From NCBI RefSeq assembly GCF_001509585.1, contig NZ_LNCI01000007.1, forward strand, positions 310,001-374,000: 64,000 nt of DNA, read 5' to 3'. This stretch comes from Tropicimonas marinistellae (GTDB taxonomy: Bacteria; Pseudomonadota; Alphaproteobacteria; Rhodobacterales; Rhodobacteraceae). The position numbers and the translations under genes are program-made. The notes beneath the pieces are model-generated. The model was given only the letters and a program-made list of their open reading frames with translations, searched no databases and was not told the origin of the DNA. Shown one piece after another: positions 13,618-30,186 of the stretch. Within the stretch, counting starts at the first letter, position 1; every line of letters begins with the position of its first letter.

Positions 13618-13730
13618 GAGTGTATCCGTATGTCGTTGGCGTTTTACCAACGTATCACAAATGACAAGGCAAATTGCGAGGAGATTGCGCCGTTCGCGCA
13701 TAACACGTCGCCAGATCAGGGACCGACGTT

Positions 13731-14762
13731 TCAGAGCGCCGGAAGAAGGTGCTCGATCAGAATGTCCTGGTTGCCGCCAAGCTTTGAGTTCTTGAGTGGG
13801 CGGATAGGTGCAACCCGGCGCTCCAGCTCCGCACTTTCCGACATCGTGAAATAGAGATCCGCCCAGGCAAGTTCATGCGGGCGCAGCGTTTCCGTGCCAT
13901 CGAAATAGCTCTGTTGGCGACCGGAATAGGCCTCGGATCTGGCACCGGTATCGAGATCGGAAACCGCAAATTCGACGATCCGATGCAGGGCCGCGTCACA
14001 GGCGTCGCTCAGGTCGAGATCCTGGGTTCGCAGCAACGACACTGACAGCACCAACGGGGCTATCGCGTGAAGCTGATAGTGCAGAGCGTACTTCCCGCGA
14101 CGCATCTCTTGCGGCAGGCCGCCATCCGGCGTGGCGGTGCACATGAGCATCTCAACCACCTCGGCGGCCTGCGCGACGAGTTCGCCATCGCCCGTGGCAA
14201 TACCGGTCGCGATCACGCCGAGAGACGACCAGGCGCGTAGGTTTCCCTTTTGCGCACCGGGGGTCGCATCTTCGGCCCAGAAACGCAGTTCTTCGCGCGC
14301 GGCCTGCCCGAGCCAGCGATCCACCGCCGCCACATCCTGCGGCCGCGTTGCCGTATCGCGGACCTGAAGATAGGCCAGCGAAATGCCCGCAAACCGTCCG
14401 CCTACAGAGATCTGCGCGGTGAACGTCTGAAGATCACCCAATGCCCCCGCATCTGCCCACCGCCGCAATTCCGCGACGAGGCAATCGGCACGATCCGCAC
14501 TCTTCGGACGGATCAGGATCTGGTTCGCCTCAGTGGAAAGATCGCGGATGAAGTCATCGACCGGCTTCAAGGCCGCGTTGACCTCCGCATTTCCCTTCGG
14601 ATCGATGTCGGAACGGGACTCGCTGTCTTCCTTGTATCGGCTGGCGAAGCCAAGGGTGACAACCGGGTCCGCCCGAACCCGGCACATTTCGCTCGCGGCA
14701 GCGGCATCACCGGCGAAGGCTCCAAGACCGAGGCTAAACAGGGCTGCAAGCGCTCGGGTCAT
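13731..14762 (-). CDS. algL: Alginate lyase-family protein (PL5, AlgL-like) with altered active site
   Basis: A 343-residue periplasmic protein with signal peptide MTRALAALFSLGLGAFAGDAAA. It aligns with Pseudomonas AlgL along its length: FASRYKEDSESR against FTSKYEGSDSAR, RRWADAGAL against SAWARAGAL, and GGLPQEMRRGKYALHY against GFLPNELKRRQRALAY. Tyr229 and Arg222 match the AlgL Tyr/Arg pair. The PL5 signature NNHSYW is AQKGNL here, putting Lys172 at the catalytic His, and the catalytic Lys66 position is Arg42. Lyase activity is therefore doubtful. It is the last gene of the polymer operon; its ATG overlaps the preceding stop by 4 bp. Comparisons are from memory of the Pseudomonas protein. 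Confidence 0.82.
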   Translation of the reverse strand: MTRALAALFSLGLGAFAGDAAAASEMCRVRADPVVTLGFASRYKEDSESRSDIDPKGNAEVNAALKPVDDFIRDLSTEANQILIRPKSADRADCLVAELRRWADAGALGDLQTFTAQISVGGRFAGISLAYLQVRDTATRPQDVAAVDRWLGQAAREELRFWAEDATPGAQKGNLRAWSSLGVIATGIATGDGELVAQAAEVVEMLMCTATPDGGLPQEMRRGKYALHYQLHAIAPLVLSVSLLRTQDLDLSDACDAALHRIVEFAVSDLDTGARSEAYSGRQQSYFDGTETLRPHELAWADLYFTMSESAELERRVAPIRPLKNSKLGGNQDILIEHLLPAL

Positions 14763-17521
14763 TGGATTACCGGATGGATGTCGGTCAACAGATTTGCCTG
14801 CGCAGCCAATTCGGCCGCCTTGCCGTGACCCGCGACAGCGGCTTGGCGCAACCAGGTGGCCGCATCACCCGCATCGGCGGGAACGCCTATCCCGAAGGCG
14901 TAGGCGCGCGAAAGCTCGAACATCGCGGAAGGATCGCCGCCCTGCGCCGCCTTTTCAATCCAAGACACGGCGATACGCATGGCCTCCGGCCCCTCTGCCC
15001 GATCACGCAGGAAATAACCGTACTCACGCATCGCTGCGACATCGCCACTGGCCGCGGCGCGTCCGTATGGCTCAATCAGGTCGATATGGCGGGACACGGC
15101 CGCTTGAACAGCCTCGGTACTGCCACGCAAACGACCGAGCACGCTGGCGAGGCGCGCATCCTCAAGCGTCGCGAAGGCATCCAGGAACATCGCGGCGGCT
15201 GCGTCGGGGTCGTACTCGGCATAGGCAGGGGTCGTATACCGGTCGATCAGGCGGTACCGGGCCACCGAAGAGCCCGCCTCCCACGCGCGGATGTAGTTCG
15301 ACATCATCTCCGCGCTCGCCGCCACGCCCACGGAATCGCGGTAGCTGTCACCCATCTTGACCAGTTTCCAAGGCGTATCGTCCGCAAGGTTCGAGGCGGT
15401 ATCGAGCCAGTGCCGCGCTTCGTCGCGACGGCCGATGCGCGAAAGCGCCTCGCTGAACCGCACCGCCGATTTGAAGTCGCATGTCATCGAGGCTTTCATC
15501 CGGTGGATGTAGTCCTGCCGTTTCGACGCGTCGACGCGCGGCAGGGCGAAGGCCAGTGCTTGAAAATCGCCGCGCGCGTCGATCACCTCGGCAAAACGGG
15601 CGAACAACTCGGCTTCGCCCATGGTGCCGGCCGAATCCTCCGGATTGGCATAATGCAGCATGAGATTGATCGCATCGCCGGACCCCTGCCCGGCCAGTGG
15701 GGACAATAGATCCCATGCTTCTTCGCGCGTATCATCCGGCGTGTCGCGCAGCAGGATCTCCGCAAGGCGGATCGCAGATTCCGCCTCGCCGCGCTTCATC
15801 GCTTCGCGCATCAGCTGCAGCGCCGACCAACGCTCGTTGTCGGTCGCCGCAAGCTCGAAGGAAATCCGCGCCAGGTGGCTCAACGCGCTGTCGAAGTTGC
15901 GCGAGTAGCGCGCCCAGAATTCCAGCGTCACCGGATCGACATCGCCAGCGGTTTGAAGGTGTGTGAGGTAGACCGCCAGCGACGACGGCCGACCGTAGAG
16001 CGCCTGGGTCTGGAGCACTGCCTCCTCCAGCGCGGACGTACCGACCGTTGCGATATTGGTGTCGTTGATCGACAGATCGAGACCAGAGGAATCGGTGCCC
16101 GCTTCGGTCGCCTTCCAGTGCCGCGCGAGGTCCAGCCGCGGCGCGTCGGGCGTGCGGCACATATATGCGCCGGAGAGATCGTTCATCGCGGAGATCGAAC
16201 CGTGATGAGTCACGGCGCGGGTCAGAAGGTCAAGCGCGCGGTCGGTCGCCGCGTGGTTATCCTGATGGTGAAACAGGATCTCGGCCAATTTGCTGAGACC
16301 GTCCGTGTCGCCCAACTCGGCTGCGCGCTCCAGCAGCACCCGGGCATCCGCCTCCCCTGCCCATTGACCCTTTGCCTTCAGCACCCCGGTCGCAAGTCGC
16401 GTGAATACCCAGCCCGGCGGCTCGTCCAGTTCGGACAGCTGGCGCAGGGCATCCAGCCGCTCGGCTTCATGTCCGGGGAAATCCTTTTGGTGCGCTTCAA
16501 GGAACAACGCGTAGCGAACGAGCCCCTGCCGCTGGCCCGGCTCCAGCGCGGCCTTGTACAGGCTCCGCGCCTTCTCCAGATCCTTTGGCACGATTGCGCC
16601 GCGCTCATAGAGGCCCCCGAGTTCGACCATCGCATAGGTCAACCCGTGGTCAGAAGCCTGCGTCAGGTAGTGCAGGAGCGTATCGTTGTCCTTCTCGAAA
16701 CCGTCGCTCTTGAGGTGAAACTCCACGACCTTCCAGGCCGCGGCTCCATCCCCGAGGTCGGCTGCGAAGCGATACCAGCGCTCGGCCTTGGCATTGCTCT
16801 GGGCAACGATCTCGCCATTCTTGAACTCACGCGCGATGCGCCAGATCCGGTCGCAGATCGTGGAGTTCAACTCGCCGACCAGTGAACCGAACGCCATCGT
16901 GATCGCAAGTTCGGGATCCAAGTCCCAACCCGGCACGATTTCACCGCGCTGGACACGCGCGGTGAGCGCAAGGATCGCGTCGGCATTACCGGCATAGGCG
17001 CTGGCAACCATGATTTCCGACGCGCGTGCCGGATCGCGCGGTACCCCGACACCGTCCATCAGAAACTCAGCCGCGGCGTTCTGGAAACGCGGCGACTTGG
17101 ATTCGATGTCACGCAGGAGTTCGGGCACCAACCGCTGACGTTCCAATTCTCCATAGCGGCCGGTGGCAATCATCAGCTCGATCCGGTCCAGCAGTGCATG
17201 CGTCTCCGTGTACTTCGGATCCTCGTCCCGCAGGCGTAGGTAGGCAGCCTTGAGCGTCTCCTCCCATCGGGGCGCGTCCACCATCTCGAGCCGGCTGAGA
17301 TCGGCCTTCACTACCGCGATGTCATCGGTGAAGAACGCTCCGCCGTCCCAAGTTTTCCACCGCTCAAAGATCACGCCGTCCGCTGGCCTGGAAACGCAGA
17401 CATCCATGGGCTTGATGTCAGGCGGGCGGAAGTCGATCTCGACAGGCGCCGCGCAGACGCTGCCGACCGACAGGGCGCCAGCCAACAGGGCCGAGCGTAA
17501 TCTGTGGGGACTGACGAACAT
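14759..17521 (-). CDS. Large periplasmic Sel1/TPR-like repeat protein in the alginate operon
   Basis: A 920-residue protein with signal peptide MFVSPHRLRSALLAGALSVG and then almost entirely helical Sel1/TPR-like repeats. Examples are GDTDGLSKLAEILFHHQDN, GGDPSAMFELSRAYAFGIGV and AVAGHGKAAELAAQ, the last two near the C-terminus. I see no beta-barrel-like C-terminus and no lipobox. AlgK in Pseudomonas is a 475-residue TPR-like lipoprotein that helps assemble the export complex. This protein is about twice that and is placed between algF and algL, where Pseudomonas has no such gene. It probably scaffolds a periplasmic complex (inference). It starts 49 bp after the algF stop. Confidence 0.78.
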   Translation of the reverse strand: MFVSPHRLRSALLAGALSVGSVCAAPVEIDFRPPDIKPMDVCVSRPADGVIFERWKTWDGGAFFTDDIAVVKADLSRLEMVDAPRWEETLKAAYLRLRDEDPKYTETHALLDRIELMIATGRYGELERQRLVPELLRDIESKSPRFQNAAAEFLMDGVGVPRDPARASEIMVASAYAGNADAILALTARVQRGEIVPGWDLDPELAITMAFGSLVGELNSTICDRIWRIAREFKNGEIVAQSNAKAERWYRFAADLGDGAAAWKVVEFHLKSDGFEKDNDTLLHYLTQASDHGLTYAMVELGGLYERGAIVPKDLEKARSLYKAALEPGQRQGLVRYALFLEAHQKDFPGHEAERLDALRQLSELDEPPGWVFTRLATGVLKAKGQWAGEADARVLLERAAELGDTDGLSKLAEILFHHQDNHAATDRALDLLTRAVTHHGSISAMNDLSGAYMCRTPDAPRLDLARHWKATEAGTDSSGLDLSINDTNIATVGTSALEEAVLQTQALYGRPSSLAVYLTHLQTAGDVDPVTLEFWARYSRNFDSALSHLARISFELAATDNERWSALQLMREAMKRGEAESAIRLAEILLRDTPDDTREEAWDLLSPLAGQGSGDAINLMLHYANPEDSAGTMGEAELFARFAEVIDARGDFQALAFALPRVDASKRQDYIHRMKASMTCDFKSAVRFSEALSRIGRRDEARHWLDTASNLADDTPWKLVKMGDSYRDSVGVAASAEMMSNYIRAWEAGSSVARYRLIDRYTTPAYAEYDPDAAAAMFLDAFATLEDARLASVLGRLRGSTEAVQAAVSRHIDLIEPYGRAAASGDVAAMREYGYFLRDRAEGPEAMRIAVSWIEKAAQGGDPSAMFELSRAYAFGIGVPADAGDAATWLRQAAVAGHGKAAELAAQANLLTDIHPVIQ

Positions 17522-17570
17522 GGCATCGCCTCCTTGATCAGACGTCCCGGCAAATGACCGGGACCGGGTC

Positions 17571-18206
17571 TCAGTTCACGAAGGAATTCTCGTGCGCGAA
17601 GGCCGAATATGCCCCGTCCCGTCCGGTAACGATGATCGTCACGCCTTCCTTCCGGCGCAGTTCGACGCCCGGGACACTGGCCAGAACCGCGTCGCCGGAT
17701 TTAATCTCGAAATCCAGCGTCAGCGGTGCCTTGACAGCGACGGAACTGTTCTGCCCGGCCGAAATCCCCTGCGCGACATTGGCCTTGGCGCGCGGCACAA
17801 ACAGATCGAGCTCGTCGGCATCGGTCAGATTGAAGAACGCTATATCAGCCTTCGCAGGATTGGATTGCAGCGTGTCCGGCAGGGGTACCGGCGTTCCGTC
17901 ATCGGCAAGTATCACGGAGTAAAAGCTGCGCGGCGCGACCGTGAAACTGCTTTCGGCACCTTCGACCGCGACCTTTATCTCGCCGGGTTCCACGTGGATG
18001 TAGTTCGACACGCCGTTCTGCAGGTCGGAAATCCCGGCCGAGGCCACCTTCCCGTAGTTTTTTCCCGGAACGATCAGGCGAACGAAGCTCGCGTCGGGGT
18101 CTCGAACGTCCTGATAGAGGCCATTGTCGGACTGGGCGTTGGCTGCACCCGTGAGGTTCAGAACGGTGACGGAAACAAGTGCGAAGAAGCGAATGCGAGG
18201 TTTCAT
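17571..18206 (-). CDS. algF: Alginate O-acetyltransferase accessory protein AlgF
   Basis: A 211-residue periplasmic protein with signal peptide MKPRIRFFALVSVTVLNLTG. The mature part is rich in beta strands and has the AlgF-like opening GLYQDVRDPDASFVRLIVPG. ATG 18206 overlaps the algX TGA by 4 bp, which decides it over an upstream in-frame start at 18230. AlgF works with AlgI, AlgJ and AlgX to acetylate the polymer in the periplasm; its biochemical role is the least clear of the four. Sequence conservation in AlgF is low, so the call leans on context. Confidence 0.8.
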   Translation of the reverse strand: MKPRIRFFALVSVTVLNLTGAANAQSDNGLYQDVRDPDASFVRLIVPGKNYGKVASAGISDLQNGVSNYIHVEPGEIKVAVEGAESSFTVAPRSFYSVILADDGTPVPLPDTLQSNPAKADIAFFNLTDADELDLFVPRAKANVAQGISAGQNSSVAVKAPLTLDFEIKSGDAVLASVPGVELRRKEGVTIIVTGRDGAYSAFAHENSFVN

Positions 18207-19582
18207 GGCATATCCTTTGGTTTGGAGCAAAGTACGAGCGAGGCGCCGTCGGAAACCGGACGGTCGAACACAACGGAAACAGCGGTGAGACTGTCGGTGT
18301 CATACGCGTTGACGGGCATATGGAACCGCCCGGTGTGGCGGAGCCGCTCCCCGCGTTCGAGGAGTTGCATGCGCTCGCTGCCATCCTCGAAGGAGAAGTG
18401 GAACTCGGCCGCCGCCGGCCCTTCGGCACCGGCATCAGCGAGCAACACGTCGCCAGAAGTCAGTCCGAAGTCGGCGAATGTGGCCTCGAGCCGGTTCGGC
18501 GCCACGTGCCGCGCGTCAAGCGGCAGCGCACAACTCTGACCGGCCGCCGCGATCAGTTCCAGCAGTGGCTGGTCCCCGTATTGCAGCAGGTTGTTGTAGA
18601 TCGGGTTTTCCCAGATCAGGAAATGCGGCCGATCGAGGTGGAAATCCTCCGACGTGAGATAGGAGAGGATCGAGCCGTACTGGTTGCCGCCGGTAATTGC
18701 GTGGTTGACCACGTCCAGCCCGGTATATTGCGAGAGCCACCCGTCGAAATTGGAAAGCTCCATGTCGGAAAAGGAGGTTCCAACCACTGCGATCTGGACG
18801 CGGCTTTCATCGTCCCCGAACAGATCCAAGTCACCCCCGTCTCCACCAAGGCCCAGGTCCAACTCGACCTTTTGGGTTTTCCATGTCGTCGTCACGGGCT
18901 CAGGGATCTTGGTCAGGCAGTTGCGCTGGATGAGTTGGCGCAGACCGGAGAATGCGACCTGCGTTCCCGTCTCGACCGTTTCGAACTCCGAGACCTCCAG
19001 GTCCGCCAGATGTGGCAGCTTGCCGATTTCCTTTGCCACCTCAACGGCCGCCAGACGCGCGCCTTCGGAACTCCAGTGAAAGTCGGCCTGGAAGTAGGGC
19101 ATCTTGCCGTGTTCCGCCGCCAGCATCGCGTTCTGCCCGTGAATCGTCACAACACCGGCTGCTCGCAGACGGTCGACGATATCCTGGTAGACTGCGGCCG
19201 AGACATCTTTCTTGTAACCGTAGTGCCGGGCCACGTCTGGCAGTCGGTTCGGCATCGCCTGGCTCTTGGTCGGAATAGGCAGGAAAACAAGAGTGGTTCC
19301 CTGTTCCGCCAGCGTCCGGGAGAGTTGCGAGAGCAGCTCGACGGTTTTGTCCGAGAACGGGTGGTGCATGCGAATATCCGCGTAGACGCGGTAAAAGACG
19401 CCGTCCTTTCCCTCCACCACCGGTGTCTGCGCATCTTCGTGAAGGCCAGCGCAGCCGAAACGCGAGGGGTAGAGCGCAGCGTCCGGCTCCGGGGTCGGCA
19501 GGGGTTGTGTCGCGCAAACCGGCTGTGCGGCCGCACATAGGATGAGGGCGCCGAGGCCCCGGCACACATCATTCCATTGCAT
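18203..19582 (-). CDS. algX: Alginate O-acetyltransferase AlgX
   Basis: A 459-residue periplasmic SGNH-like acetyltransferase with a signal peptide ending near QPVCATQ. The catalytic Asp-His pair is in ADFHWSSEG (Asp157, His159) and the nucleophile is Ser260 in VVGTSFSDMELS, matching the D174/H176/S269 arrangement of Pseudomonas AlgX. A C-terminal beta-rich segment of about 100 residues is consistent with the AlgX carbohydrate-binding module. It transfers acetyl groups to the uronate chain. The start overlaps the end of the upstream lipoprotein gene by 14 bp. Confidence 0.9.
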   Translation of the reverse strand: MQWNDVCRGLGALILCAAAQPVCATQPLPTPEPDAALYPSRFGCAGLHEDAQTPVVEGKDGVFYRVYADIRMHHPFSDKTVELLSQLSRTLAEQGTTLVFLPIPTKSQAMPNRLPDVARHYGYKKDVSAAVYQDIVDRLRAAGVVTIHGQNAMLAAEHGKMPYFQADFHWSSEGARLAAVEVAKEIGKLPHLADLEVSEFETVETGTQVAFSGLRQLIQRNCLTKIPEPVTTTWKTQKVELDLGLGGDGGDLDLFGDDESRVQIAVVGTSFSDMELSNFDGWLSQYTGLDVVNHAITGGNQYGSILSYLTSEDFHLDRPHFLIWENPIYNNLLQYGDQPLLELIAAAGQSCALPLDARHVAPNRLEATFADFGLTSGDVLLADAGAEGPAAAEFHFSFEDGSERMQLLERGERLRHTGRFHMPVNAYDTDSLTAVSVVFDRPVSDGASLVLCSKPKDMP

Positions 19583-20327
19583 AGGGCAGGTCTCCCGGTT
19601 GGGGTTCAGGAAGGAAGCGGCTGTCCACGACGGTCATGAGATTTTCCGTCGTGATCTGTGCCTCCAGACTGTCTGCGGTGGAGGCGATCTCCAGCAACTG
19701 CCGCACCTGACGTGCGTTCGTTGCGTCGAGCCCGTCGGTTCGTAGCAATCCCGTCGCCATGTCGAGCGCGAGCGGGGCACTTCTGTCGCTCGTCCCGGCA
19801 TCCAGAAGCGCAATCGCGGCATCCGGCTTTTCGCCGAACGGCGTTCCGGATGTATAGGCATAAGCCAGATAGGTCAGCGCCCTTGGGTTCCCGGCTTCGG
19901 CAGCGTGCACCAAGGCCTGTTCCAGCCACGCGATCCGATCTGAGCTCATACTGGCGGTGTCAAATTCAGGATGCTCCAGCACCTCCACAAGCCCGTTGAT
20001 ACCACCGCTCCGGCCGCTGGCGGCGGCAACGGCGTAATAATGCGCCATATCGGAGGCAAGTTCCCAATGCTCGGCATTGCGCAACCGTTCGGCCAGGATC
20101 CAGGCGGCATATCCGTCGTCGTGATCAGCAATGCTGCGGACATCCGCGAAAGCGACCGGGTCCCCCTGCACCATGCGCTTGCGTACTTCCACCAGCTCGG
20201 GCGGCAGCACCTTGGCGCTGGCGAGTTCCGGGTCGGTTTCCGGCTCCTGTGCCGCGCAGGCCGCAAGGCAGAGAGCTATCAGCCCCGCACCTGCCTGGCG
20301 AAGCAGCCGTCGCGATGGGTTAGGCAT
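19569..20327 (-). CDS. TPR/Sel1-repeat lipoprotein, AlgK-like
   Basis: A 252-residue lipoprotein. The signal peptide MPNPSRRLLRQAGAGLIALC ends in the lipobox LAAC, so the mature N-terminal Cys is lipidated. The remainder is helical repeats such as AEAGNPRALTYLAYAYTSGT followed by KPDAAIALLDAG. ATG 20327 overlaps the algJ stop by 8 bp; the frame is open further upstream but overlaps algJ heavily. By type and operon it is the best candidate for AlgK function (outer-membrane lipoprotein that helps localise the porin), although about half the length of Pseudomonas AlgK. Confidence 0.72.
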   Translation of the reverse strand: MPNPSRRLLRQAGAGLIALCLAACAAQEPETDPELASAKVLPPELVEVRKRMVQGDPVAFADVRSIADHDDGYAAWILAERLRNAEHWELASDMAHYYAVAAASGRSGGINGLVEVLEHPEFDTASMSSDRIAWLEQALVHAAEAGNPRALTYLAYAYTSGTPFGEKPDAAIALLDAGTSDRSAPLALDMATGLLRTDGLDATNARQVRQLLEIASTADSLEAQITTENLMTVVDSRFLPEPQPGDLPYAME

Positions 20328-21408
20328 CCTGACGCTCCCCCTCCGCGGTCTCCTCCCAAAGCGCCGGATCGGCCAGGTAGCGGATCGGGAACTCCCAGAT
20401 GACCAATTCAGGCACAGAGTCCCCGGCGCGCATCGCGGCCAAGAACTCCTGCATCGGCCGCACTGGACCTTGCCCCTCAGCCGCATGGTTCAGCACGTCG
20501 CGTCCGAGCGCGATCTTCAGCGCCTCGGCAAAGCTCCACGCCGGATTGGCGCTGTAGCTCGTTCCGATCAGAACAAGATCGGGGCCGCCATCATCTGCGA
20601 AAAGATCAAGCACACCTGCATCTGATCCTTGTGCCCTGGCGATGTAGGGAGTGACCCGTTCCGGTTCGAGGCCGACAACGGGCGCAAGCCGATCACTGGT
20701 GACGAATGAAACGAGATCCCCCTGAAAGGTCTCCGGCTCCCCGATCTCCTTCTCGAATTGCATCTCCCCCGCCGGCACCTCTTGCGTCGCGGCAACGTGG
20801 AAGGCGACCTGTTCGGCGGTGTCGGGCGTCCAATGCGTGTCCGTCCGGAAAAACTTCCGCGGCGTCCGCCCATCACCGTAGGCGGCGCGCACGTCAACGG
20901 CTGTGAGACCGCCGTTGCTCAATGCCGAAAGAAAGGCATCATATTCCGCCGCGCTGCGCTGGCTGACATCGCTATCGATGCCATGCCGCCGCTCGATGTC
21001 GACCTTCGCGGGCAAAGGCAGGACGACCAACTCGCTACCGACGGCGGCGAGTTCCACCCGCATCTCGGCCATGCGCGCGACCGTCTCTTCCATCGACACC
21101 GGCGCATCGTCGGCGAAACGGAACTCTTCGGACGTGAAAAGCCAATCGTCCCGGCCGACGACGACACCGTCCCGACCCTCTCCAAGAATCGCGTAGCGTA
21201 GGGCGCCGACGAGGCCGACAGACGGATCGCGATGCGGGAGCCTGTCACGATAGACGATGTCTATCTCGCCCGTCACACCGCCCTGAAAGAGATCCCTATC
21301 GGCAATGGTCACGTCGCCGTGGCGCAACAGGTCGAGGTTCGCATAGGCCGCATAGCCGAAGAAGGCGATTGGAAGAATGAGCTTGAGGGCGATTTTTGCA
21401 TGGGTCAT
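20320..21408 (-). CDS. algJ: Alginate O-acetyltransferase AlgJ
   Basis: A 362-residue protein with one N-terminal membrane anchor (about residues 7-24) and a periplasmic SGNH-like domain. Catalytic signatures are DTHWTP (Asp190, His192) and LIGTSYS (Ser284). GRDDWLFTSEEF near residue 85 is a family-typical stretch. It takes part in moving acetyl groups delivered by AlgI to the polymer. The gene lies 11 bp downstream of algI. Confidence 0.9.
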   Translation of the reverse strand: MTHAKIALKLILPIAFFGYAAYANLDLLRHGDVTIADRDLFQGGVTGEIDIVYRDRLPHRDPSVGLVGALRYAILGEGRDGVVVGRDDWLFTSEEFRFADDAPVSMEETVARMAEMRVELAAVGSELVVLPLPAKVDIERRHGIDSDVSQRSAAEYDAFLSALSNGGLTAVDVRAAYGDGRTPRKFFRTDTHWTPDTAEQVAFHVAATQEVPAGEMQFEKEIGEPETFQGDLVSFVTSDRLAPVVGLEPERVTPYIARAQGSDAGVLDLFADDGGPDLVLIGTSYSANPAWSFAEALKIALGRDVLNHAAEGQGPVRPMQEFLAAMRAGDSVPELVIWEFPIRYLADPALWEETAEGERQDA

Positions 21409-21419
21409 CGCAGGTGTCC

Positions 21420-22877
21420 TCAGAACTGGAAGTACAGGAAGGGGGAGAAGCTCTGTTCGGCGAGCTTGCTGATCGTCGCGGCGGCCAGCAGGGTCAGTCC
21501 GAGCGAGATCAGCGCTTGGCGGGTGAGCGTCAGACCCACGATTCCCGCACTGCCGTCTGCACCGACCGCAACCATTTCGCCGTGGCCGGTATCCCGGTGC
21601 GGTGTGCGGAAGTACGGTTCCGCAATACAGACGGCAATGGCAATCAGCAGGATACTGATGCTCTCAGTGGTGACGGCGAACCACACCTCCGGGTCGGTTG
21701 CGATCCCGTTGAATCCGCCCAGGCCAGCATAGATCGCAAAGGCATTGCCGACGCCCTCGGCGCGGAACATCACCCAGCCGATCAGCACCAGAAACAGCGT
21801 CAGCGGAAGCGACCACCACCGGCTTGCCGACGATTTGTGGAAGCCGGTCGCACGTTCGGTTGCGAGGATAGAACCGTGCCACAATCCCCAGAGCACGAAG
21901 GTCCAATTCGCGCCGTGCCAGAGGCCACCCAGCGTCATGACGGTCATCAGGTTCAGGTAGGTGCGAAGGGTGCTGGCGCGATTTCCGCCGAGTGGAATAT
22001 AGAGGTAATCGCGCAGCCAGACCGATAGCGAGATGTGCCAGCGGCGCCAGAACTCGGTGATCGAGCGGCTGACATAGGGCGTCTCGAAATTCTCGATAAA
22101 CCGGAATCCCATCATCAGCCCGAGGCCGATCGCCATGCTGCTGTAGCCCGAGAAGTCGAAATAAAGCTGCATCATGTAGGCGCCCGCGCCGAGCCAGGCG
22201 AGCCAGAGGTCGGGCTCAGGCGTCGAAAAGGCGAGATCGGCCAGCGGGGCAATGGCGTCGGCGAGCAGTACCTTCTTGGCCAGACCGACAATGAAGCGTG
22301 CCATCCCGTCGCAGAACAGCTCGACGGAGTGCTTGCGGGCGCGGAATTGGTCCTCAAGATCCTTGTAGCGCAGGATCGGCCCGGCAATGAGTTGCGGGAA
22401 CAGGGCGATGAAGGCGGCGAAGTCGATGAGCCTGGCATCGGGCCTTGCGTCACCACGGTAGACATCGACGAGATAGCTGATCGATTGGAAGACATAGAAG
22501 CTGATGCCGATTGGCAGGATAAGGCGCCAGTGAATGCCGAGCCCGCCAGCGTCCGTGCCCAGCAGTGCCGCGAAGCTGTCGATGAAGAAGTTGAGGTATT
22601 TGAAGACACCGAGCACACTGAGGCACCCGGCGACGGCGATGGCCAGTAAAACCTTTCCTGCCGGTCGTTCCCGGTACCTGCCAATCCAGCGTCCGAAGAC
22701 GAACGCCCAGAGCGTCGTCAGTATCAGCAGCCCGAGAAAATCCACGCGCCACCAGGCGTAAAACACGTACGAACCTGCAAGAATGGTCGCCGAACGGAAC
22801 CGGTTGGGGGTGAGGTAATAGGCCGCCAGGAAGACCGGCAGGAACAGAAACAGGAAGCTCTCGGAGGAAAAGACCAT
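21420..22877 (-). CDS. algI: Membrane-bound O-acyltransferase AlgI (MBOAT)
   Basis: A 485-residue polytopic membrane protein beginning MVFSSESFLFLFLPVFLAAY. The MBOAT signature is intact: EFWRRWHISLS (His281) and TLGGLWHGANWTFVLWG (His321), the latter matching the essential His322 of Pseudomonas AlgI. It passes acetyl groups across the inner membrane for polymer acetylation. ATG 22877 lies 1 bp after the algG stop, so the long upstream in-frame extension is rejected. Confidence 0.95.
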   Translation of the reverse strand: MVFSSESFLFLFLPVFLAAYYLTPNRFRSATILAGSYVFYAWWRVDFLGLLILTTLWAFVFGRWIGRYRERPAGKVLLAIAVAGCLSVLGVFKYLNFFIDSFAALLGTDAGGLGIHWRLILPIGISFYVFQSISYLVDVYRGDARPDARLIDFAAFIALFPQLIAGPILRYKDLEDQFRARKHSVELFCDGMARFIVGLAKKVLLADAIAPLADLAFSTPEPDLWLAWLGAGAYMMQLYFDFSGYSSMAIGLGLMMGFRFIENFETPYVSRSITEFWRRWHISLSVWLRDYLYIPLGGNRASTLRTYLNLMTVMTLGGLWHGANWTFVLWGLWHGSILATERATGFHKSSASRWWSLPLTLFLVLIGWVMFRAEGVGNAFAIYAGLGGFNGIATDPEVWFAVTTESISILLIAIAVCIAEPYFRTPHRDTGHGEMVAVGADGSAGIVGLTLTRQALISLGLTLLAAATISKLAEQSFSPFLYFQF

Positions 22878-22878
22878 C

Positions 22879-24249
22879 TCAGGCTCCTTCGATGATGGGG
22901 CAAGGGGGTGGCGGTGCCGACGGCTTGCCGCCTGCCGGTTCCAGCACAATCGGGAGTTGCCCGGCAGGGTCGGCGAACAGGCCGTGGGCACCCAATGCTA
23001 AGTCTCCCGCGACGAGCCGCGGGAATTGCTCGCTGAAGTCGTTGCCAATCAGGCGAATCCGCGCCGACGCCTCGCCCGAAATCCCGCTGGTATTTGCCGC
23101 GAGTATGTTCTCGGTCACGGAGGTTTCGGCCCCGGCCGGCTGGTTGCGAAGCAATATGCCGGCGCGCCGGTTACGTTCGATGGCATTCCCGTTCAGCGCA
23201 ACGGACGTGGACCGGTGGATCACGATGCCATTGCCGCCGGATGTGCGAACTGAATTCCCGCGAACACGGATGCAGCCACTTCGCTTCACCAGGATGCCGT
23301 CTCCTTTCGCACCGCTCACACGGTTGCCTTCCAAGTCGACGTTTCGGCTGGCGCCATCGACGAAGATCCCGATCTTCCCGGCATCCTCGATCCGGTTGCC
23401 ACGCACCCGCGCACCGGTGGCGCCAGAGGAAATCCGGATTCCATGCAGGGCCGATGTCTGAACCCGGTTTCCGGAAACCTCGGTCTCGATGGTCTGCTTC
23501 AGGATCAGGCCGGCCCCGCGGGTGTCTCGAACCCAGTTCTTCCGGAAGGTCGCACCGCGGCTACCTTCGAAGAGCACGCTGCTCAAATCATCGAAGTCCG
23601 ACTCTTCGACACGGCTTTCGCCAATAGCGGGAAATATCCCCCTATTGACGACCGCGAATCCGCCAAATGCCGCTGAATCCGCATATCCGAGCCCCTCGAA
23701 GCGGCCCTTGACCACCTGTACGGCACCAACACCGGCGGTGAGAACGAAGGGGCGAAACGCGGGCGATGACTGCGACGCATCGCCGATGGCAGAAACCCCT
23801 GCATCCGAGACCGTAAGCCCGCCGAGGTTGAGAAGAAAAGCGCCTGAAGCACGATCCAGCGCAAGATCGACGCCGCCTGAAACCAAGAGCTCCGCGCTCT
23901 CCCAGATAACAAGCGGGCGGTGGAGAGTGACGGCGCCGTCGTGAGCGATGGTTATCTGACCGGCTCGTACGGCTTCGTGGTCGCTGGACAGGCTCGACAT
24001 GTCGAACGGCCCGCCGACCACCGCGAGAGCCGGAGCGTTTTCCGGTTGCTGGGCGCGGACAAGCCCAAGCTGACCGTTTGCGCCGACGCGCTGCGCCATG
24101 GCGGCCATGACAAGTCGGATATCCATCTCGACAAGTCGTCCGGCCTCGTGCGGTGATTGTGCCTCGGCCGAGGGGGACAATAGGCAGAGGCACAACAGCG
24201 CCAGTAATCCAGGCCGTCGGCAACGCGATATGCGGCGCAGATCACGCAC
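22879..24249 (-). CDS. algG: AlgG-like right-handed beta-helix protein lacking the DPHD motif
   Basis: A 456-residue exported protein. GTG 24249 overlaps the algA stop by 8 bp and gives a clean signal peptide (RRPGLLALLCLCLLSPSAEA). The body is a parallel beta-helix, with repeating turns such as SGNRVQTSALHGIRISSG, ARVRGNRIEDAGKIGIFVDG and IRVRGNSVRTSGGNGIVIH. Mannuronan C5-epimerases of the AlgG type use a catalytic DPHD(RS). No such motif occurs; the nearest equivalent reads RDTRGAGLIL (Asp242). Operon position argues for AlgG, but epimerase activity is doubtful. A purely structural role in protecting the polymer or building the export complex is possible (inference). Confidence 0.75.
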   Translation of the reverse strand: MRDLRRISRCRRPGLLALLCLCLLSPSAEAQSPHEAGRLVEMDIRLVMAAMAQRVGANGQLGLVRAQQPENAPALAVVGGPFDMSSLSSDHEAVRAGQITIAHDGAVTLHRPLVIWESAELLVSGGVDLALDRASGAFLLNLGGLTVSDAGVSAIGDASQSSPAFRPFVLTAGVGAVQVVKGRFEGLGYADSAAFGGFAVVNRGIFPAIGESRVEESDFDDLSSVLFEGSRGATFRKNWVRDTRGAGLILKQTIETEVSGNRVQTSALHGIRISSGATGARVRGNRIEDAGKIGIFVDGASRNVDLEGNRVSGAKGDGILVKRSGCIRVRGNSVRTSGGNGIVIHRSTSVALNGNAIERNRRAGILLRNQPAGAETSVTENILAANTSGISGEASARIRLIGNDFSEQFPRLVAGDLALGAHGLFADPAGQLPIVLEPAGGKPSAPPPPCPIIEGA

Positions 24250-25663
24250 GCAATTCGTCCCGCAATTCGTCACTGGTCTTGGCCACGGGCAGCTCGACCA
24301 GATGCGTATTGCTGACCAGAACGATCTCGCCTTTGGCATCGCCGCCATTTCGCACGGTGTAGCTCTGGCCTTCCGGCAAGGAGATCCGCAGTCCGGGCAA
24401 CAACTCGACGTCGCCCTCCGGACCGCCGGTCACGGAAAACTCGCCGCGCACGCCAATCAGGTGCATCGGGCCGATGCTGCCATCGACCGACAGTTCGGAG
24501 CCGGGGTTCACCGTGAGATGCGTGACATCGCAGGCATCGGTGGCGAAGGCGCGATGGCTGGCCCCCCAATGGAAATTGTGGGTCACATGGGAGTGCGCTT
24601 CCTGTCGATCCTCCAGGTGCAATGCCTGCACGGCCTTTTTCACCTGTTGCGACTTCGACCGGGATGCAACGAGAAGGGCGTCATTGGTGTCGACAACGAC
24701 GACATCGTCCAGCCCAACGACCGCAACAAGCCTGTCCTGCGACCGAACCAGCGAGTTGCGGGTCTCGATCGAGATAACGTCGCCGGAAATGACGTTTCCC
24801 GCCTCGTCTGGCGTTCCCACCGAATGCATTGCCTCCCACGAGCCAACGTCGTTCCAGCTGATCGAAAGCGGCGCCAGAGCGATGCTATCGGTCTTCTCGA
24901 ACACCGCGATTTCCGTGGGCTGGCTCTCGGCACGAGCAAAGGCCTCGGGATCCAGTATCGTGCCATAGCTATCCCGGGTCTCCTTGCCGACCGCGTGAAA
25001 GACCGCCGCGAAGGAGGTCGGATCGAAGCGGCGGTATTCCTCTATGATCGTGTCCGCGCGGAACATGCTGATGCCGGAAGCCCAATAGGCGTTACCGGCG
25101 TCCAGAAGGGCCTGGGCACGCTCCAGTGGCGGTTTTTCAACGAACTCTCCAACATGATGCAGGCCGTTATAACCATCGATCGGGCCGCCATCCGTGATGT
25201 AGCCATAGCCGGTTTCAGGATAGTGCGGCTGGATCCCGTAGGTGATGATCCGCCCATCCAGCGCCGCCTCGTACATCGCGGATACCTGCCCGTTCACATC
25301 GCCCTCGATGACATGATCCGCCGGCAGAACGAGCAGGACTGCATCCCTGTCCGCCTTCAATGCCTTGAGCGCCGCCGCCAAAACCGCTGGACCGGTATTC
25401 CGCGCGACCGGCTCGCCAATGATCTCTCCGCGCATCTGGATCTCGTCGAGTTGCGCGCGCACGTAGTGGGCATGTTTGGCGTTGGTCACGAGGATCGGGT
25501 CGCGCATTCGCTCGCCGCTATGGCGTTGCACCGTGGATTGCAGGAACGAAAGGGAATTCCCGCCGGAGACCGCGTGGAACTGCTTCGGGCTGTCGGTTCG
25601 GGAGACGGGCCATAGGCGTGACCCTGTCCCTCCACACAGGACAAGCGGGACGATATGGGACAT
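24242..25663 (-). CDS. algA: Mannose-1-phosphate guanylyltransferase (AlgA/ManC family), isomerase half degenerate
   Basis: A 473-residue protein. The N-terminal nucleotidyltransferase is intact: LVLCGGTGSRLWPVSR (residues 8-22), ILVTNAKHAHYV, EPVARNTGPAVLAAAL and FVEKP. It should make GDP-mannose from mannose 1-phosphate and GTP. In bifunctional AlgA the C-terminal cupin has QMHHHRAEHW as the metal site for phosphomannose isomerase. Here that segment reads VDGSIGPMHL, so the metal ligands are lost and isomerase activity is unlikely. ATG 25663 has an AAGGAG site and is preferred to upstream in-frame starts. Fructose 6-phosphate would have to be converted by another isomerase elsewhere in the genome. 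Confidence 0.9.
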   Translation of the reverse strand: MSHIVPLVLCGGTGSRLWPVSRTDSPKQFHAVSGGNSLSFLQSTVQRHSGERMRDPILVTNAKHAHYVRAQLDEIQMRGEIIGEPVARNTGPAVLAAALKALKADRDAVLLVLPADHVIEGDVNGQVSAMYEAALDGRIITYGIQPHYPETGYGYITDGGPIDGYNGLHHVGEFVEKPPLERAQALLDAGNAYWASGISMFRADTIIEEYRRFDPTSFAAVFHAVGKETRDSYGTILDPEAFARAESQPTEIAVFEKTDSIALAPLSISWNDVGSWEAMHSVGTPDEAGNVISGDVISIETRNSLVRSQDRLVAVVGLDDVVVVDTNDALLVASRSKSQQVKKAVQALHLEDRQEAHSHVTHNFHWGASHRAFATDACDVTHLTVNPGSELSVDGSIGPMHLIGVRGEFSVTGGPEGDVELLPGLRISLPEGQSYTVRNGGDAKGEIVLVSNTHLVELPVAKTSDELRDELRA

Positions 25664-25716
25664 TGAGCGTGCTCCTTGAAATCGCATTTGGATGGCGAAC
25701 GACGTCCGGGGCGGAT

Positions 25717-26808
25717 TCATCCACCCGCCAGCGACGCCCTCAATCGGTCGAGGCTGTTCTGAAAAGGGATGGCGCGGACGATCCGAACAGTCGCAATCTG
25801 ACCGGCGCGGTCGGCCGGCAAGATGGCCTCCGGCAGCAGAGTGACCGGTACGGCCTCACCGGGCGGAGCGGCGGCGAGTTCGGAAGCCAAATTCGGCCCG
25901 AACGCAGCGCCGATCCGGGCTCCATCGGCGAAGACCAAGTCGATTTCATCGCCGCCGAGGACGGCGCGAATCCCTTCGGGGCTTAGCGTCGCCTGGATTT
26001 CGGGCGGACCATTGTCGGTGAGCAACCTGATGATGGGTTCACCTGCGAGGATGGTCGCGCCCTCCTCGATCACGACTTCGGCGATTCCGCAGTCGCAGGG
26101 CATCTTGATGCTCAGCATCGCCCCGGTCGTCGACAGAAGAGAAAAGGCCACGTCGCCGGTGCCCGCGGAGGCGTTCAGGTAGTCGATCTGTCCCGACGCT
26201 GGCGCGCGCAGCGTCGTGCCGGGCAGTGAAATAACGGCCGGCATCGCTTCGGCGCGCGTAAGCACGCGGGCGTGAAAGGTCGTCGCAGCAATGCCGATCA
26301 GTGCAGCCGAGAGCACCGCGACGGATAGGTACCGCATGGTTTGTGCTGCGCGGTACCCAATCCCGTGGCGCGCGCCAGGCCCGCTCGGCTTAACCCGTGT
26401 TTGGGTGTTGACCTGCAGAACATCGGAAATCTGGACCAGGTCCCCGGCGATGAAGGAATTCAGCACGAACCGGAGCTGCGGCAGATGCGCGCCAGCCGGA
26501 TCGCCGAAGGCAAACGTCACTTCGCCCTGATCCGAACCATCGAAGACACGCAACTCCGCCTCTGCCGGAAGGCTCACCGCGAAGCCCTCGAACGAGAATT
26601 GCAGAACCACCAGTTGGCGGGAGCCGTCGAGCGAGGGATCAAGCAATCCCTGACACGTCCCGCCAATGAGCGAGAGGCCATTGCCACGAAGCCGTCTGTC
26701 CTGAACCAGAAGTTCGAAACAGACAGGGATCATCGGGTGTTCCGTGCTACTTCGAACAAGCTCGGCTGAGGTCATGAGGCTCGAGTGGGCGGTGTGTGGG
26801 CTCTGCAT
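25717..26808 (-). CDS. alg44: Alginate copolymerase Alg44-like (degenerate PilZ domain, membrane helix, periplasmic domain)
   Basis: A 363-residue protein with the Alg44 plan: an N-terminal PilZ-like domain (about residues 15-140), one transmembrane helix (about 157-178) and a periplasmic membrane-fusion-like domain with PCDCGIAEVVIEEGATI, which matches SPCDCRVVQQLVADG in Pseudomonas Alg44. The PilZ signature is broken. No RxxxR is present where QRQHARFKIP occurs in Pseudomonas (here TEHPMIPVCF), and DxSxxG is GLSLIGG. Cyclic-di-GMP binding is therefore unlikely. ATG 26808 has a good AGGAG site. It partners with Alg8 in polymerisation. Confidence 0.86.
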   Translation of the reverse strand: MQSPHTAHSSLMTSAELVRSSTEHPMIPVCFELLVQDRRLRGNGLSLIGGTCQGLLDPSLDGSRQLVVLQFSFEGFAVSLPAEAELRVFDGSDQGEVTFAFGDPAGAHLPQLRFVLNSFIAGDLVQISDVLQVNTQTRVKPSGPGARHGIGYRAAQTMRYLSVAVLSAALIGIAATTFHARVLTRAEAMPAVISLPGTTLRAPASGQIDYLNASAGTGDVAFSLLSTTGAMLSIKMPCDCGIAEVVIEEGATILAGEPIIRLLTDNGPPEIQATLSPEGIRAVLGGDEIDLVFADGARIGAAFGPNLASELAAAPPGEAVPVTLLPEAILPADRAGQIATVRIVRAIPFQNSLDRLRASLAGG

Positions 26809-26835
26809 GTCTGGGCTCCTTCCGGGCGGTGCGGA

Positions 26836-28305
26836 TCAGGCGAGTTGGACAAGGTAGAGGACGCAGAGGAGCAGCCATCCGACCGTCAATGCGTGGAGAT
26901 AGGTGGAACTGGCCATGCGTAGGCGATGGCCGGGTGTCAGCGCGGCGGCGCGACCGGGGCCCGCGGACTGGCGCGTCCATTTCTGCCGGTCGAGACGGAA
27001 GATCACGAAGCTCTTCACCAGGGCCCCGACGATCTGGCCGAAATAGAGCAGGAACGGAAAAGAGATCGGGAAACGGGCGCTTCCACGGAATGCCGAGACG
27101 ATCGCGCAATAGACGTAGCGGGTACCCATTACCCACGCAGCATAGGCTGGCAGGATCATCGGCTCGACCAGGAGTGCCGTCAGCAGCACGCCAGTGGGGC
27201 CGGACAGCGTGGTCCAGATGGACATCCGTTGATCCAGCAGTGACCACCAGGTGAACGTGCCGATCCGCGAGGGGCCGAGCCCGAGCGCACGTCCATTGGT
27301 GCGCATCATGTTGCCGTACCAGCGGGTCATGAGGACGACCGCGCTGTCGACAAAGCCCCTGCGCGGTTGGCTTTCCATGGAAAGCGACGCGACATCCGGC
27401 AGATAGGCCGTGCGATATCCGTTCGAAAGCAGCCAGAACCACGTGGATTTGTCGTCACCGGTGAGGAATTTCACATGGCCGAGGCGCCAATGGTGAATAC
27501 TGTCGCTCTGCACCATGGCGATGAAGCCCGGATTGGTTGCCAGATCGGCGCGGAACACGGACATGCGGCCGGTGAGTGTCAGGACACGTGTCGACAGACC
27601 CATGGAACACATCATCACCTGGCGCTGCGCGAACCGCAGGTTGAACCAATCCTCAAACAGGCCCGGGCGATCGATTTCGGCATGCTCGTCGGTAGTAAGG
27701 GCACCAACACGGGCGTCGGTAAAAACAGGTGCGCACCGGACGACAAGATCCTCGGGCACGCAGCTGTCTCCGTCCACGAAGGTCACGATGTCGTGCCGGG
27801 TGGGACATTCACGGGCGATCAGTTCCAGCGACCGCGCCAGCGCATCGCGTTTGCCGGTGCCGGGTATCTGATCGATCAGCAGCTTCACGCTCGACATGTC
27901 GCGGGCCATGCCGGAGAAGGTCCGCCGGATCAGCCGGGCATCTGCCGGTTCGACCACCGAAGCGACAACGGTCGCGCCACCTTCCGCCGCTGCGGCAGCC
28001 GCGAAAACCGAGCGGTATACCCGAACGGTAACGGAAGGGTCGATCTTGTAGCTCGTGGTCAGGAAGAAGGCGTGCGGGCGAACAGGCTGGGTCGCGAAGG
28101 CCGCCTCTGCCTTCGCTTTCCGCACTGGATAGACAACCCGAACGTAAGCCAGCGCGCGACTGAAATTGAGCAATGCCCAACTGTACCGCCAGACCCCGAT
28201 GAAGCCGAGAACAATGAGCGCCCCCTTTGCCTCGCCGAGCTGGTGCAACGGAGTCGCTGAGGCCAGCAGCACCATTGCGGCCAGATATGCGGCATGTCCG
28301 AGCAT
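26836..28305 (-). CDS. alg8: Alginate polymerase glycosyltransferase Alg8
   Basis: A 489-residue inner-membrane family-2 glycosyltransferase. Hydrophobic helices flank a cytosolic GT-A domain with DGDS (metal-binding DxD), TGDDKSTWFWLL and RWYGNMMRTNGRALGLG, all close to Pseudomonas Alg8. It polymerises mannuronate from GDP-mannuronate. From memory, the catalytically needed His323 of Pseudomonas lies 27 residues after the DD pair; here that residue is Ser (within SMESQP), which should be checked by alignment. The gene lies 19 bp after algD and 27 bp before alg44. Confidence 0.92.
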   Translation of the reverse strand: MLGHAAYLAAMVLLASATPLHQLGEAKGALIVLGFIGVWRYSWALLNFSRALAYVRVVYPVRKAKAEAAFATQPVRPHAFFLTTSYKIDPSVTVRVYRSVFAAAAAAEGGATVVASVVEPADARLIRRTFSGMARDMSSVKLLIDQIPGTGKRDALARSLELIARECPTRHDIVTFVDGDSCVPEDLVVRCAPVFTDARVGALTTDEHAEIDRPGLFEDWFNLRFAQRQVMMCSMGLSTRVLTLTGRMSVFRADLATNPGFIAMVQSDSIHHWRLGHVKFLTGDDKSTWFWLLSNGYRTAYLPDVASLSMESQPRRGFVDSAVVLMTRWYGNMMRTNGRALGLGPSRIGTFTWWSLLDQRMSIWTTLSGPTGVLLTALLVEPMILPAYAAWVMGTRYVYCAIVSAFRGSARFPISFPFLLYFGQIVGALVKSFVIFRLDRQKWTRQSAGPGRAAALTPGHRLRMASSTYLHALTVGWLLLCVLYLVQLA

Positions 28306-28324
28306 TCCCGCCGGTCCCCGTCGT

Positions 28325-29644
28325 TTACCAGCAAATGCCGGAATATGTGCCGGCGGAGACCCGATGTGGGTCCAGGCGGGTCAAATCGACCATGGCCGTG
28401 GCCTCCGAGGCCGCCGTCAGTGGCGCGACCGCTTCGTCGTAGAGATTACCGACGACGATCGCTTCTGACTGGTCGATAAGATCGGCGATTTCGCCGACCA
28501 TGCGCGCCTTCAGGTCCGGGACCTTTCGGTCCGTCCGGCCGACGGCGCTCATGTCCTCCTTGAAGGCGGTGTGAACGTAGGGGTCGTACACGCTCACCTC
28601 GATACCTTCGCCGATCAGGCGCGAGGCGAGTTCCGCCAGCGGACTTTCGCGCAGGTCATCTGTCCCCGGCTTGAAGCTGATGCCGACCATGCCGACCTTT
28701 TTTGCGCCGCTCTCTTTCACCATACGTTCGGCACGGGCGATCTGCCCGGCGTTTGCCTCCAACACGGCGTCCATCAGAAAGGGAACGACCTTCTTGCTGT
28801 GAGCGAGGTGACGCAGGGCGCGCACGTCCTTGGGGAGACAAGAACCGCCAAAGGCGAAGCCGGGGCGCATGAAGTAGGAGGATATGTTGATCTTCTTGTC
28901 CGAGCAGAGGATCTTCATCACAGTCTGCCCATCCAGCCCGCAGGCCTTGGCGATATTGCCAATCTCGTTGGCGTAGGTAACCTTCACCGCACGCCAGGTG
29001 TTTGACGTGTATTTCACCATCTCGGCGGTACGCACATCGACCTTGTGAATGTCGCAGGGGAGCTGCGCGTTCAACTCGGTCAGGATCGCGCCGGTCGCCT
29101 CGTCCATGTAGCCGAAGACGATCAATCCGGGATCGTAGTTGTCCTCGATCGCGGTGCTCTCGCGCAGGAACTCCGGGTAGTATCCGATGCCCAGGTCCTC
29201 GCCCGCAGTTCGGCCGGAAATCCGTTCGATCGTCGGGATACACTGCTCTTCGGTACTGCCCGGAACGATGGTCGATCGGATGACAACGGAGTGAAAGCCC
29301 TCCTTCTCGGCCAGCGCCTCCGCTATGCTCTCGCAGGCCGAGAGAACGTAATGCAGGCCCACGGAGCCGTCTGGTGCGCTCGGAGTTCCCACGCAGATGA
29401 AGGATGCATCGGTATTCAGTACCGCCTCCTTCGCATCGAGTGTCGCACGCAAGCGCCCGGATGCGCGGCCTTCTGCAATCAGTTCATCAAGGCCGTTTTC
29501 CACGATCGGACTTTTGCCGTCGTTGATGTTCTCGACCTTGATTGGGTCCACATCCACGGCAATGACCTCATGGCCGTCCTTCGCCAGGCAAGCCGCCGAG
29601 ACGACCCCGACGTACCCAATTCCAAAAATGCTAATTCGCGCCAT
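28325..29644 (-). CDS. algD: GDP-mannose 6-dehydrogenase
   Basis: A 439-residue UDP/GDP-sugar dehydrogenase. The NAD site is ISIFGIGYVGVVSAACLA (residues 4-21). The catalytic Cys269 is in FAFGGSCLPKD, aligned with Cys268 of Pseudomonas AlgD, and GISFKPGTDDLRESP follows. It performs the committed four-electron oxidation of GDP-mannose to GDP-mannuronate. ATG 29644 was chosen by the position of the dinucleotide fold; the upstream in-frame extension is not conserved in character. It is the first gene of the polymer operon, preceded by a 542-bp non-coding region. Confidence 0.96.
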   Translation of the reverse strand: MARISIFGIGYVGVVSAACLAKDGHEVIAVDVDPIKVENINDGKSPIVENGLDELIAEGRASGRLRATLDAKEAVLNTDASFICVGTPSAPDGSVGLHYVLSACESIAEALAEKEGFHSVVIRSTIVPGSTEEQCIPTIERISGRTAGEDLGIGYYPEFLRESTAIEDNYDPGLIVFGYMDEATGAILTELNAQLPCDIHKVDVRTAEMVKYTSNTWRAVKVTYANEIGNIAKACGLDGQTVMKILCSDKKINISSYFMRPGFAFGGSCLPKDVRALRHLAHSKKVVPFLMDAVLEANAGQIARAERMVKESGAKKVGMVGISFKPGTDDLRESPLAELASRLIGEGIEVSVYDPYVHTAFKEDMSAVGRTDRKVPDLKARMVGEIADLIDQSEAIVVGNLYDEAVAPLTAASEATAMVDLTRLDPHRVSAGTYSGICW

Positions 29645-30186
29645 CTGGCAAATCCCGATGCTTGGTCTGTTTAGCGAACCCGAGCGCCCGCTGTTTCCGC
29701 AAACAGCCTGCGGTTTTCTGCGAGTGCGAAGGAGTCGGGAAAAGCGGCGACAAGCCACAGAAATGCCGAAATTCAGGATGTATGGATTTGCAGATTCCCC
29801 GCAAAAAAGTCGTAGAAAAATGCAATAAATGGCTCAATTCCTGTGGATTAAGGCTGAACCGTGGCAAACAGCGATGCTGCATTGCGGCTGGAAACAATAC
29901 GTTTCTGTAGTCGACACAATGCTATGCGCTCGATACACAGCGAGATTTTTGTGCATTCGCGTGCAAAGGCGCAGAGTTTTCGGCCCAATTTGGTGATCGG
30001 CAGGATTTCTCAGGCCGCACACAGATCTTTTCGCACGAATCCGCACGTTCCAGATGTTTTCACTGTCGTGCCTTCCAATGGCCCGTTTGTTTCCCAGAAC
30101 TGAAATCGAATATCCGCACCGGCCATTCTCCAAGCCGGACGGAATGAAACCACTCAATTCGAACCGACACGACGAAGGGCACCATT
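29645..30186. other. Non-coding region between divergent algD and beta-helix/RTX gene
   Basis: No credible gene is seen in these 542 bp. The stretch is visibly more AT-rich than its surroundings (for example 29800-29835 and 29940-30060) and must carry promoters for both divergent units. Apart from the inverted repeat at 29690-29707 I could not assign a clear operator or sigma-factor site. Confidence 0.6.
29690..29707. promoter_or_regulatory. Inverted repeat in the algD leader
   Basis: A perfect 7-bp inverted repeat, GCTGTTT-CCGC-AAACAGC, lies 46-63 bp upstream of the algD ATG. It could be an operator or an RNA hairpin in the 5' leader of the polymer operon. The regulator is unknown. Confidence 0.4.

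Follow-up and report, generated by a model that had tools for sequence, protein, structure and literature searches.

Which polymer does a bacterium make, and by which route does it leave the cell, when an alginate-type operon is present but the outer-membrane porin AlgE is not? This question is raised by a locus of Tropicimonas marinistellae (RefSeq assembly GCF_001509585.1; 5.4 Mb, 41 contigs), analyzed here in a window of 64,000 nucleotides (positions 310,001–374,000 of contig NZ_LNCI01000007.1), to which all coordinates refer unless another locus is named. The minus strand carries twelve adjacent or overlapping open reading frames (ORFs), from 29644 down to 13731, in the order AlgD-8-44-A-G-I-J-TPR-X-F-Sel1-L (TPR, tetratricopeptide repeat). 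Ten of the twelve proteins could be named by Pfam or PDB matches (AlgD; the family 2 glycosyltransferase, GT2, Alg8; AlgA; AlgG; AlgI; AlgJ; AlgX; AlgF; a Sel1 protein; and AlgL). Together with profile matches, these bear out the alginate-type gene set that a first-pass annotation had recognized; the operon ends given there are likewise correct, 29644 being the ATG of MARISIFG within a longer ORF (28325–29758). The host is indeed an alphaproteobacterium, as had been supposed, and its Alg8 is 87% identical to that of T. sediminicola (locus L036). Judged by sequence, the operon is best read as a variant of the known alginate system. More specifically, we favor, with modest confidence, the view that its synthase-dependent machinery forms an alphaproteobacterial branch whose product would be O-acetylated, unepimerized poly-β-D-mannuronate (mannuronan).

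Relatives of the operon are numerous. Alg8 matches at E 1e-20 or better were obtained in 11 of 100 genomes (the own genome included), with at least 64% identity in five of these 11 (the own genome, G004, G014, G028, and G029). Of the 197 stretches of GTDB genomes that fit the search patterns, 165 code for a relative, and 80 were retained; 14 plasmid records also match Alg8 at 1e-20. The comparison comprised 87 loci, namely the window, 80 genome loci (three genomes with two each) and six plasmid loci, whose hosts are, according to the record titles, mainly Rhodobacterales and Rhizobiales. AlgI is present in 60 of the 87 loci, and these follow the order D-8-44-A-G-I-J-t-X-F-Sel1 (t, small TPR gene) as far as the stretch extends, except for L097, L106, and L107, which lack D and A nearby; a few seeming order swaps stem from over-extended ORF starts. 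Another 18 loci are arranged as D-8-44-A-G-t-X-Sel1-L, without I, J, and F (t was not detected in L094, L113, and L114), and the eight remaining loci are incomplete at the stretch ends. L035, on a Rhizobium gallicum plasmid, represents a separate, more canonical lineage. The order conserved across loci led us to reject a fortuitous grouping of genes or the remains of a broken operon, and its recurrence in Rhodobacterales and Rhizobiales points to an established lineage rather than a local rearrangement. The first-pass annotation was thus right that the order is non-canonical, which direct comparison with the Pseudomonas-type operon L138 confirms, but this order is not peculiar to the host genome and is the usual one in the alphaproteobacterial lineage.

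The case for an unepimerized product starts from AlgG (22879–24348; true start probably internal), whose β-helix matches solved AlgG structures with E about 1e-8. In the column that we take to be Arg345, arginine occurs in 4 of 79 aligned members, and the sequence around the catalytic site is strongly diverged. Of the 79, 78 show a gap in the column of the catalytic His of the DPHD motif, the residue proposed to abstract the proton (PMC4444821), and L035 is the sole carrier of DPHD. Whole genomes were also scanned with a codon pattern for YG-x-DPH[D/E], by which AlgE-type epimerases bearing the motif should be detected too. It scored in all 11 Pseudomonas-type control genomes, as against 3 of the 51 alphaproteobacterial genomes with the operon, and the reversed pattern, used as a control, gave no match in any of the 62 genomes. 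The three alphaproteobacterial positives are all Rhizobium with a separate DPHD-bearing AlgG-like ORF; in the own genome the codon-pattern scan gave no match, and no AlgG relative was found besides the operon copy. By its sequence the AlgG epimerase is dead, and the protein would be kept as a scaffold without catalytic motif, a β-helix for binding or guiding the chain. The AlgG of an AlgE-bearing operon from another family (L145, 6338–7894) also lacks DPHD at the aligned site, and the loss may thus extend beyond alphaproteobacteria. The AlgG of L035 belongs to an operon in which Alg44 RxxxR and AlgL NH are intact too and which includes three Sel1 proteins and a phosphomannomutase; no AlgE was seen at that locus.

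Guluronate could nevertheless be present in the polymer if another enzyme added it after export, and the most likely agent would then be the secreted-type protein encoded next to the operon (30187–32172, plus strand). In its fold and repeats this protein combines an A-module-like β-helix with R-module-like RTX calcium repeats, as in the Azotobacter AlgE epimerases, and a β-helix/RTX gene neighbors the operon in some relatives as well. The catalytic DPHE/DPHD motif, however, is found in none of 16 RTX neighbors and is missing from the window protein, and since a Foldseek ranking shows no function either, the RTX protein is not accepted as a proven epimerase; we hold guluronate addition after export to be unlikely. 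In Jannaschia sp. M317 (L033, 32999–41413), a run of RTX-type genes, three of them annotated as calcium-binding proteins, comes after the AlgL gene and one glycosyltransferase gene.

Precursor supply and synthesis are, as far as motifs tell, intact. AlgD (28325–29644; ORF to 29758 with a GTG start) finds its best PDB match over its full length in the GDP-mannose 6-dehydrogenase 1mfz (435 bits), whereas the top-scoring structure of a UDP-glucose dehydrogenase reaches 242 bits; on this ground the reading of AlgD as a UDP-glucose dehydrogenase, as in a glucuronan system, was rejected. The motif GGSCLPKD is kept in all 82 relatives of sufficient length. In the AlgA-like mannose-1-phosphate guanylyltransferase (24242–25663; ORF to 25720) the guanylyltransferase motif GxGxRLWP is kept, as in 77 of 77 aligned relatives. 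The isomerase motif HHRAEHW of the bifunctional AlgA is replaced, and the protein is thus probably a guanylyltransferase only. With AlgD it would provide GDP-mannuronate, which the GT2 synthase Alg8 (26836–28305; Pfam/PDB match), partnered by Alg44 as in canonical systems, would polymerize through the inner membrane. The Alg8 of genome G029 (L015, 4984–6566) is split into two overlapping ORF pieces.

The Alg44-like copolymerase (25717–26808), with a degenerate PilZ domain and a periplasmic arm, has no Pfam match and was identified by profile comparison (hhalign E 4e-18 over 319 columns against the Pseudomonas-type protein). At the aligned RxxxR, 1 of 82 sequences (L035) has both arginines and 4 of 82 have one; the window protein has neither, nor is it among the 15 Alg44 in which a looser scan finds RxxxR near the aligned site. 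The claim that the binding motif for cyclic di-GMP (c-di-GMP) is lost rests on RxxxR, because the alignment is poor over the other half, [DN]xSxxG, which a loosely defined pattern detects in 8 of 82 sequences, one of them the window's. The c-di-GMP switch of Alg44 would accordingly be gone, and control would probably be transcriptional, through the LuxR-family regulator gene upstream of the operon (32234–32938, minus strand); a LuxR-type match accompanies 50 of the 60 AlgI loci and none of the 18 loci without AlgI/J/F. The operon had initially been called complete, which is not supported for a strict mannuronate/guluronate alginate, as the catalytic motif of AlgG, the aligned RxxxR of Alg44 and the isomerase motif of AlgA are absent. 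What the sequence predicts is thus not the very alginate of Pseudomonas.

Acetylation of the product is suggested by a full AlgI/J/X/F set with SGNH motifs, as in canonical systems: the MBOAT acetyl carrier AlgI (21420–22877; ORF to 22991), the SGNH acetyltransferase AlgJ (20320–21408; PF16822) with its triad motifs, AlgX (18203–19582; PF16822), an SGNH acetyltransferase with a C-terminal carbohydrate-binding part in which DFHW and GTS are present, and AlgF (17571–18206; PF11182, E 1.8e-11). These proteins would acetylate the polymer in the periplasm. Conservation is high, with WH[IM]S in 58 of 60 and GLWHG in 56 of 60 AlgI, and with the triad motifs in 58 of 58 AlgJ. For AlgX, 75 of 77 assigned sequences were long enough for alignment. 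Asp, His, and Ser are all kept in the 57 aligned sequences from AlgI-bearing loci, the window included; in the 17 from loci without I/J/F, His is gone throughout and Ser in 16 (L113 retains it). The eighteenth such locus, L034 of Tateyamaria omphalii, was left out because its AlgX is in pieces (two overlapping ORFs, 24765–25759), and the 75th aligned sequence is that of L035, which has AlgF but no AlgI match and keeps all three triad residues.

Where acetylation has been lost, we infer that AlgX is kept as a scaffold; a retained AlgX without active site fits the situation in Pseudomonas aeruginosa, where AlgX is needed for secretion and its enzymatic activity is not (PMC9734138). In a quick Alg8 tree (clades read by eye; L112 and L104 on long branches), the complete loci without I/J/F form one Rhodobacterales clade with support 100, which also includes the incomplete L067, and the I/J/F-less Martelella locus L112 groups with I/J/F-bearing Roseibium with support 98. 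The coupled loss of the AlgX site and of I/J/F therefore seems to represent at least two events. A count of tree labels gives 10 changes, a figure inflated because in eight of the rows labeled as lacking I/J/F (L036, L045, L049, L059, L067, L091, L095, and L104) the locus is truncated where its contig or flank ends. Going by strain names, three genomes have both kinds of locus (L097 with L089, L106 with L101, and L107 with L082), the first of each pair being of the acetylating type without D/A nearby and the second having D/A and lacking AlgI/J/F, which suggests that a single precursor supply feeds two products. A gene for a heparin-lyase-I-like protein adjoins algD in 10 of the 18 I/J/F-less loci (in L034 at 15402–16352, where it belongs to PF14099); some members have a lipobox-like start, and the protein may act on the polymer of these loci. 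Acetylation genes also occur in other contexts. In L024, L025, L147, and L148, of the window's family, a second, Alg8-like system combines matches to AlgD and AlgA with linked AlgF-I-J-X, without an AlgG or AlgL match, and may make another acetylated polymer; in L139, L140, L141, L143, and L144, AlgF-I-J matches stand together with no Alg8 match within the fetched 20 kb, so that acetylation modules may serve other polymers.

The last gene of the operon encodes an AlgL-like PL5 lyase (13731–14762; PF05426). Its residues could be scored in 20 of 23 loci, those of sufficient length: R249 and Y256 are kept in all 20, H202 is replaced by Leu in 19, among them the window, and Y259 by His in all 20, so that of the canonical R249, Y256, and H202 the last is missing here. 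In P. aeruginosa, AlgL H202A has no detectable activity in vitro and behaves like the wild type in vivo, and R249A/E and Y256F are harmful (PMC8829089). Given the wild-type-like behavior of H202A, the AlgL of the window may still remove polymer, and stray chains would be cleared weakly or with changed specificity. It could be argued that the uniformly replaced AlgL active site, the strong divergence of AlgG around its catalytic site and the altered Alg44 reflect a changed polymer, the product being some other mannuronate-containing polymer or copolymer. We consider this rather improbable in view of the single GT2 synthase gene with its dedicated GDP-mannuronate supply, the homology of AlgX and AlgF, and the retention of exactly those AlgL residues, R249 and Y256, whose loss harms P. 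aeruginosa.

The second part of the question concerns the outer membrane. No match to the AlgE family (PF13372) was found in the whole own genome, and the family is missing from 49 of the 51 operon-bearing genomes, whereas each of the 11 Pseudomonas-type controls gave a match. The absence of AlgE reported for the operon thus extends to the genome and to nearly all of the lineage, and export across the outer membrane, which the first-pass annotation had called unexplained, is still so after the genome- and lineage-wide PF13372 search. Two plasmids of Rhizobium carry genes that match PF13372 strongly, but it is unlikely that these are the missing AlgE: the one examined adjoins an amidohydrolase, AraC regulators and a transposase, and the genomes of three other Rhizobium loci (L064, L074, and L093) gave no PF13372 match. 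A barrel concealed in the operon was rejected as well, since all genes are assigned and the largest protein, the giant Sel1 repeat protein (14759–17521; 920 amino acids), is modeled as a helical solenoid with helices throughout, no strand of at least three residues and a mean predicted local distance difference test score of 85.2 over its 920 residues. In the TPR-plus-barrel exporters BcsC, PgaA, and PelB, a C-terminal β-barrel is fused to the repeat solenoid; the model of the Sel1 giant predicts no such barrel. The Sel1 giant weakly resembles AlgK, and the small TPR protein (19569–20327; ORF to 20486; lipobox LAAC) shows weak Sel1-like similarity only. Together, the two would form a periplasmic conduit.

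The flanking genes were also compared. Clustering of 1138 unassigned ORFs of at least 150 amino acids gave 13 families common to at least five loci, none of them barrel-like as judged by eye, without a barrel predictor. The downstream flank of most acetylating loci ends inside the Sel1 gene (10-kb flank); it is covered in L013, L030, L031, L032, and the window. In the window, a winged-helix gene (13102–13701) and, further downstream, PPK2 and TRAP-transporter genes follow the operon. If the polymer remained periplasmic or at the cell surface, no outer-membrane module would be needed, and the missing AlgE, the model of the Sel1 giant, the lack of a barrel-like flanking family and the lipobox-like pattern, found in 2 of 73 small TPR proteins in addition to the window's own (wrongly called starts may hide some), would all agree with this. 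However, induced P. aeruginosa is harmed by loss of AlgL or of R249/Y256, an effect attributed to periplasmic polymer (PMC8829089), and several alphaproteobacteria whose cellulose operons lack BcsC are known producers (PMC7112194). As acetylation and Sel1/TPR conduits are, moreover, typical of secreted polymers, a system without any dedicated pore appears highly improbable. An acetylated mannuronan would instead leave through an unlinked channel of another family.

Taken beyond the single locus, the data suggest, tentatively and with somewhat less than even confidence, a large and little-recognized alphaproteobacterial lineage characterized by natural mannuronan, dead-enzyme scaffolds, a c-di-GMP-blind Alg44 and an exit of unknown family. 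One of its branches would be acetylated and at least two others probably unacetylated, with a pseudo-AlgG throughout and a pseudo-AlgX wherever AlgI/J/F were lost, and three genomes combine both locus kinds. Many alphaproteobacteria with this operon may then make pure mannuronan. A natural producer of this polymer had not been identified according to a passage of a 2015 review (PMC4444821), and the operon-bearing strains make the question directly testable. Evolution seems to have parted structural from catalytic roles within one operon family, with AlgG retained in the absence of its catalytic motif and the AlgX site lost exactly with its acetylation partners, apparently on at least two branches; this would be natural evidence for the scaffold role that mutants of P. 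aeruginosa had suggested (PMC9734138). A synthase system with neither AlgE nor a TPR-barrel would also be the second, after alphaproteobacterial cellulose, to raise the question of how a polymer crosses the outer membrane.

Among the matches listed in a literature search that covered titles and abstract openings (supplements lie outside it), none describes an alginate operon of Rhodobacterales or Rhizobiales. For strain CCB-MM3 (L031), one exopolysaccharide gene is tabulated under alginate biosynthesis, but it lies on another replicon (PMC7892980). Divergent "atypical" alginate operons of deep-sea bacteria that have lost algKE or modification genes were reported by Bundalovic-Torma et al. (2020; PMC7112194) and resemble the window operon in lacking outer-membrane loci; the main-text passages concerned name neither an alphaproteobacterial alginate lineage nor active-site loss, and the two sets may overlap. 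The alphaproteobacterial cellulose operons without BcsC (PMC7112194) are likewise synthase-dependent and encode no outer-membrane pore, but their synthase and polymer differ. With the operon of Pseudomonas and Azotobacter (algD-8-44-K-E-G-X-L-I-J-F-A), the window operon shares homologs of AlgD, Alg8, Alg44, AlgA, AlgG, AlgI, AlgJ, AlgX, AlgF, and AlgL as well as, by direct comparison with L138, intact acetylation motifs. It differs in its order, its LuxR-type neighbor, the absence of AlgE, of the AlgG, Alg44, and AlgA isomerase motifs and of AlgL H202, and in the apparent replacement of AlgK by the 920-residue Sel1 solenoid and the small TPR protein. The closest parallel to the proposed product is found in AlgG-mutant laboratory strains, which make mannuronan without epimerization (PMC4444821); in the lineage of the window, the loss is natural and fixed.

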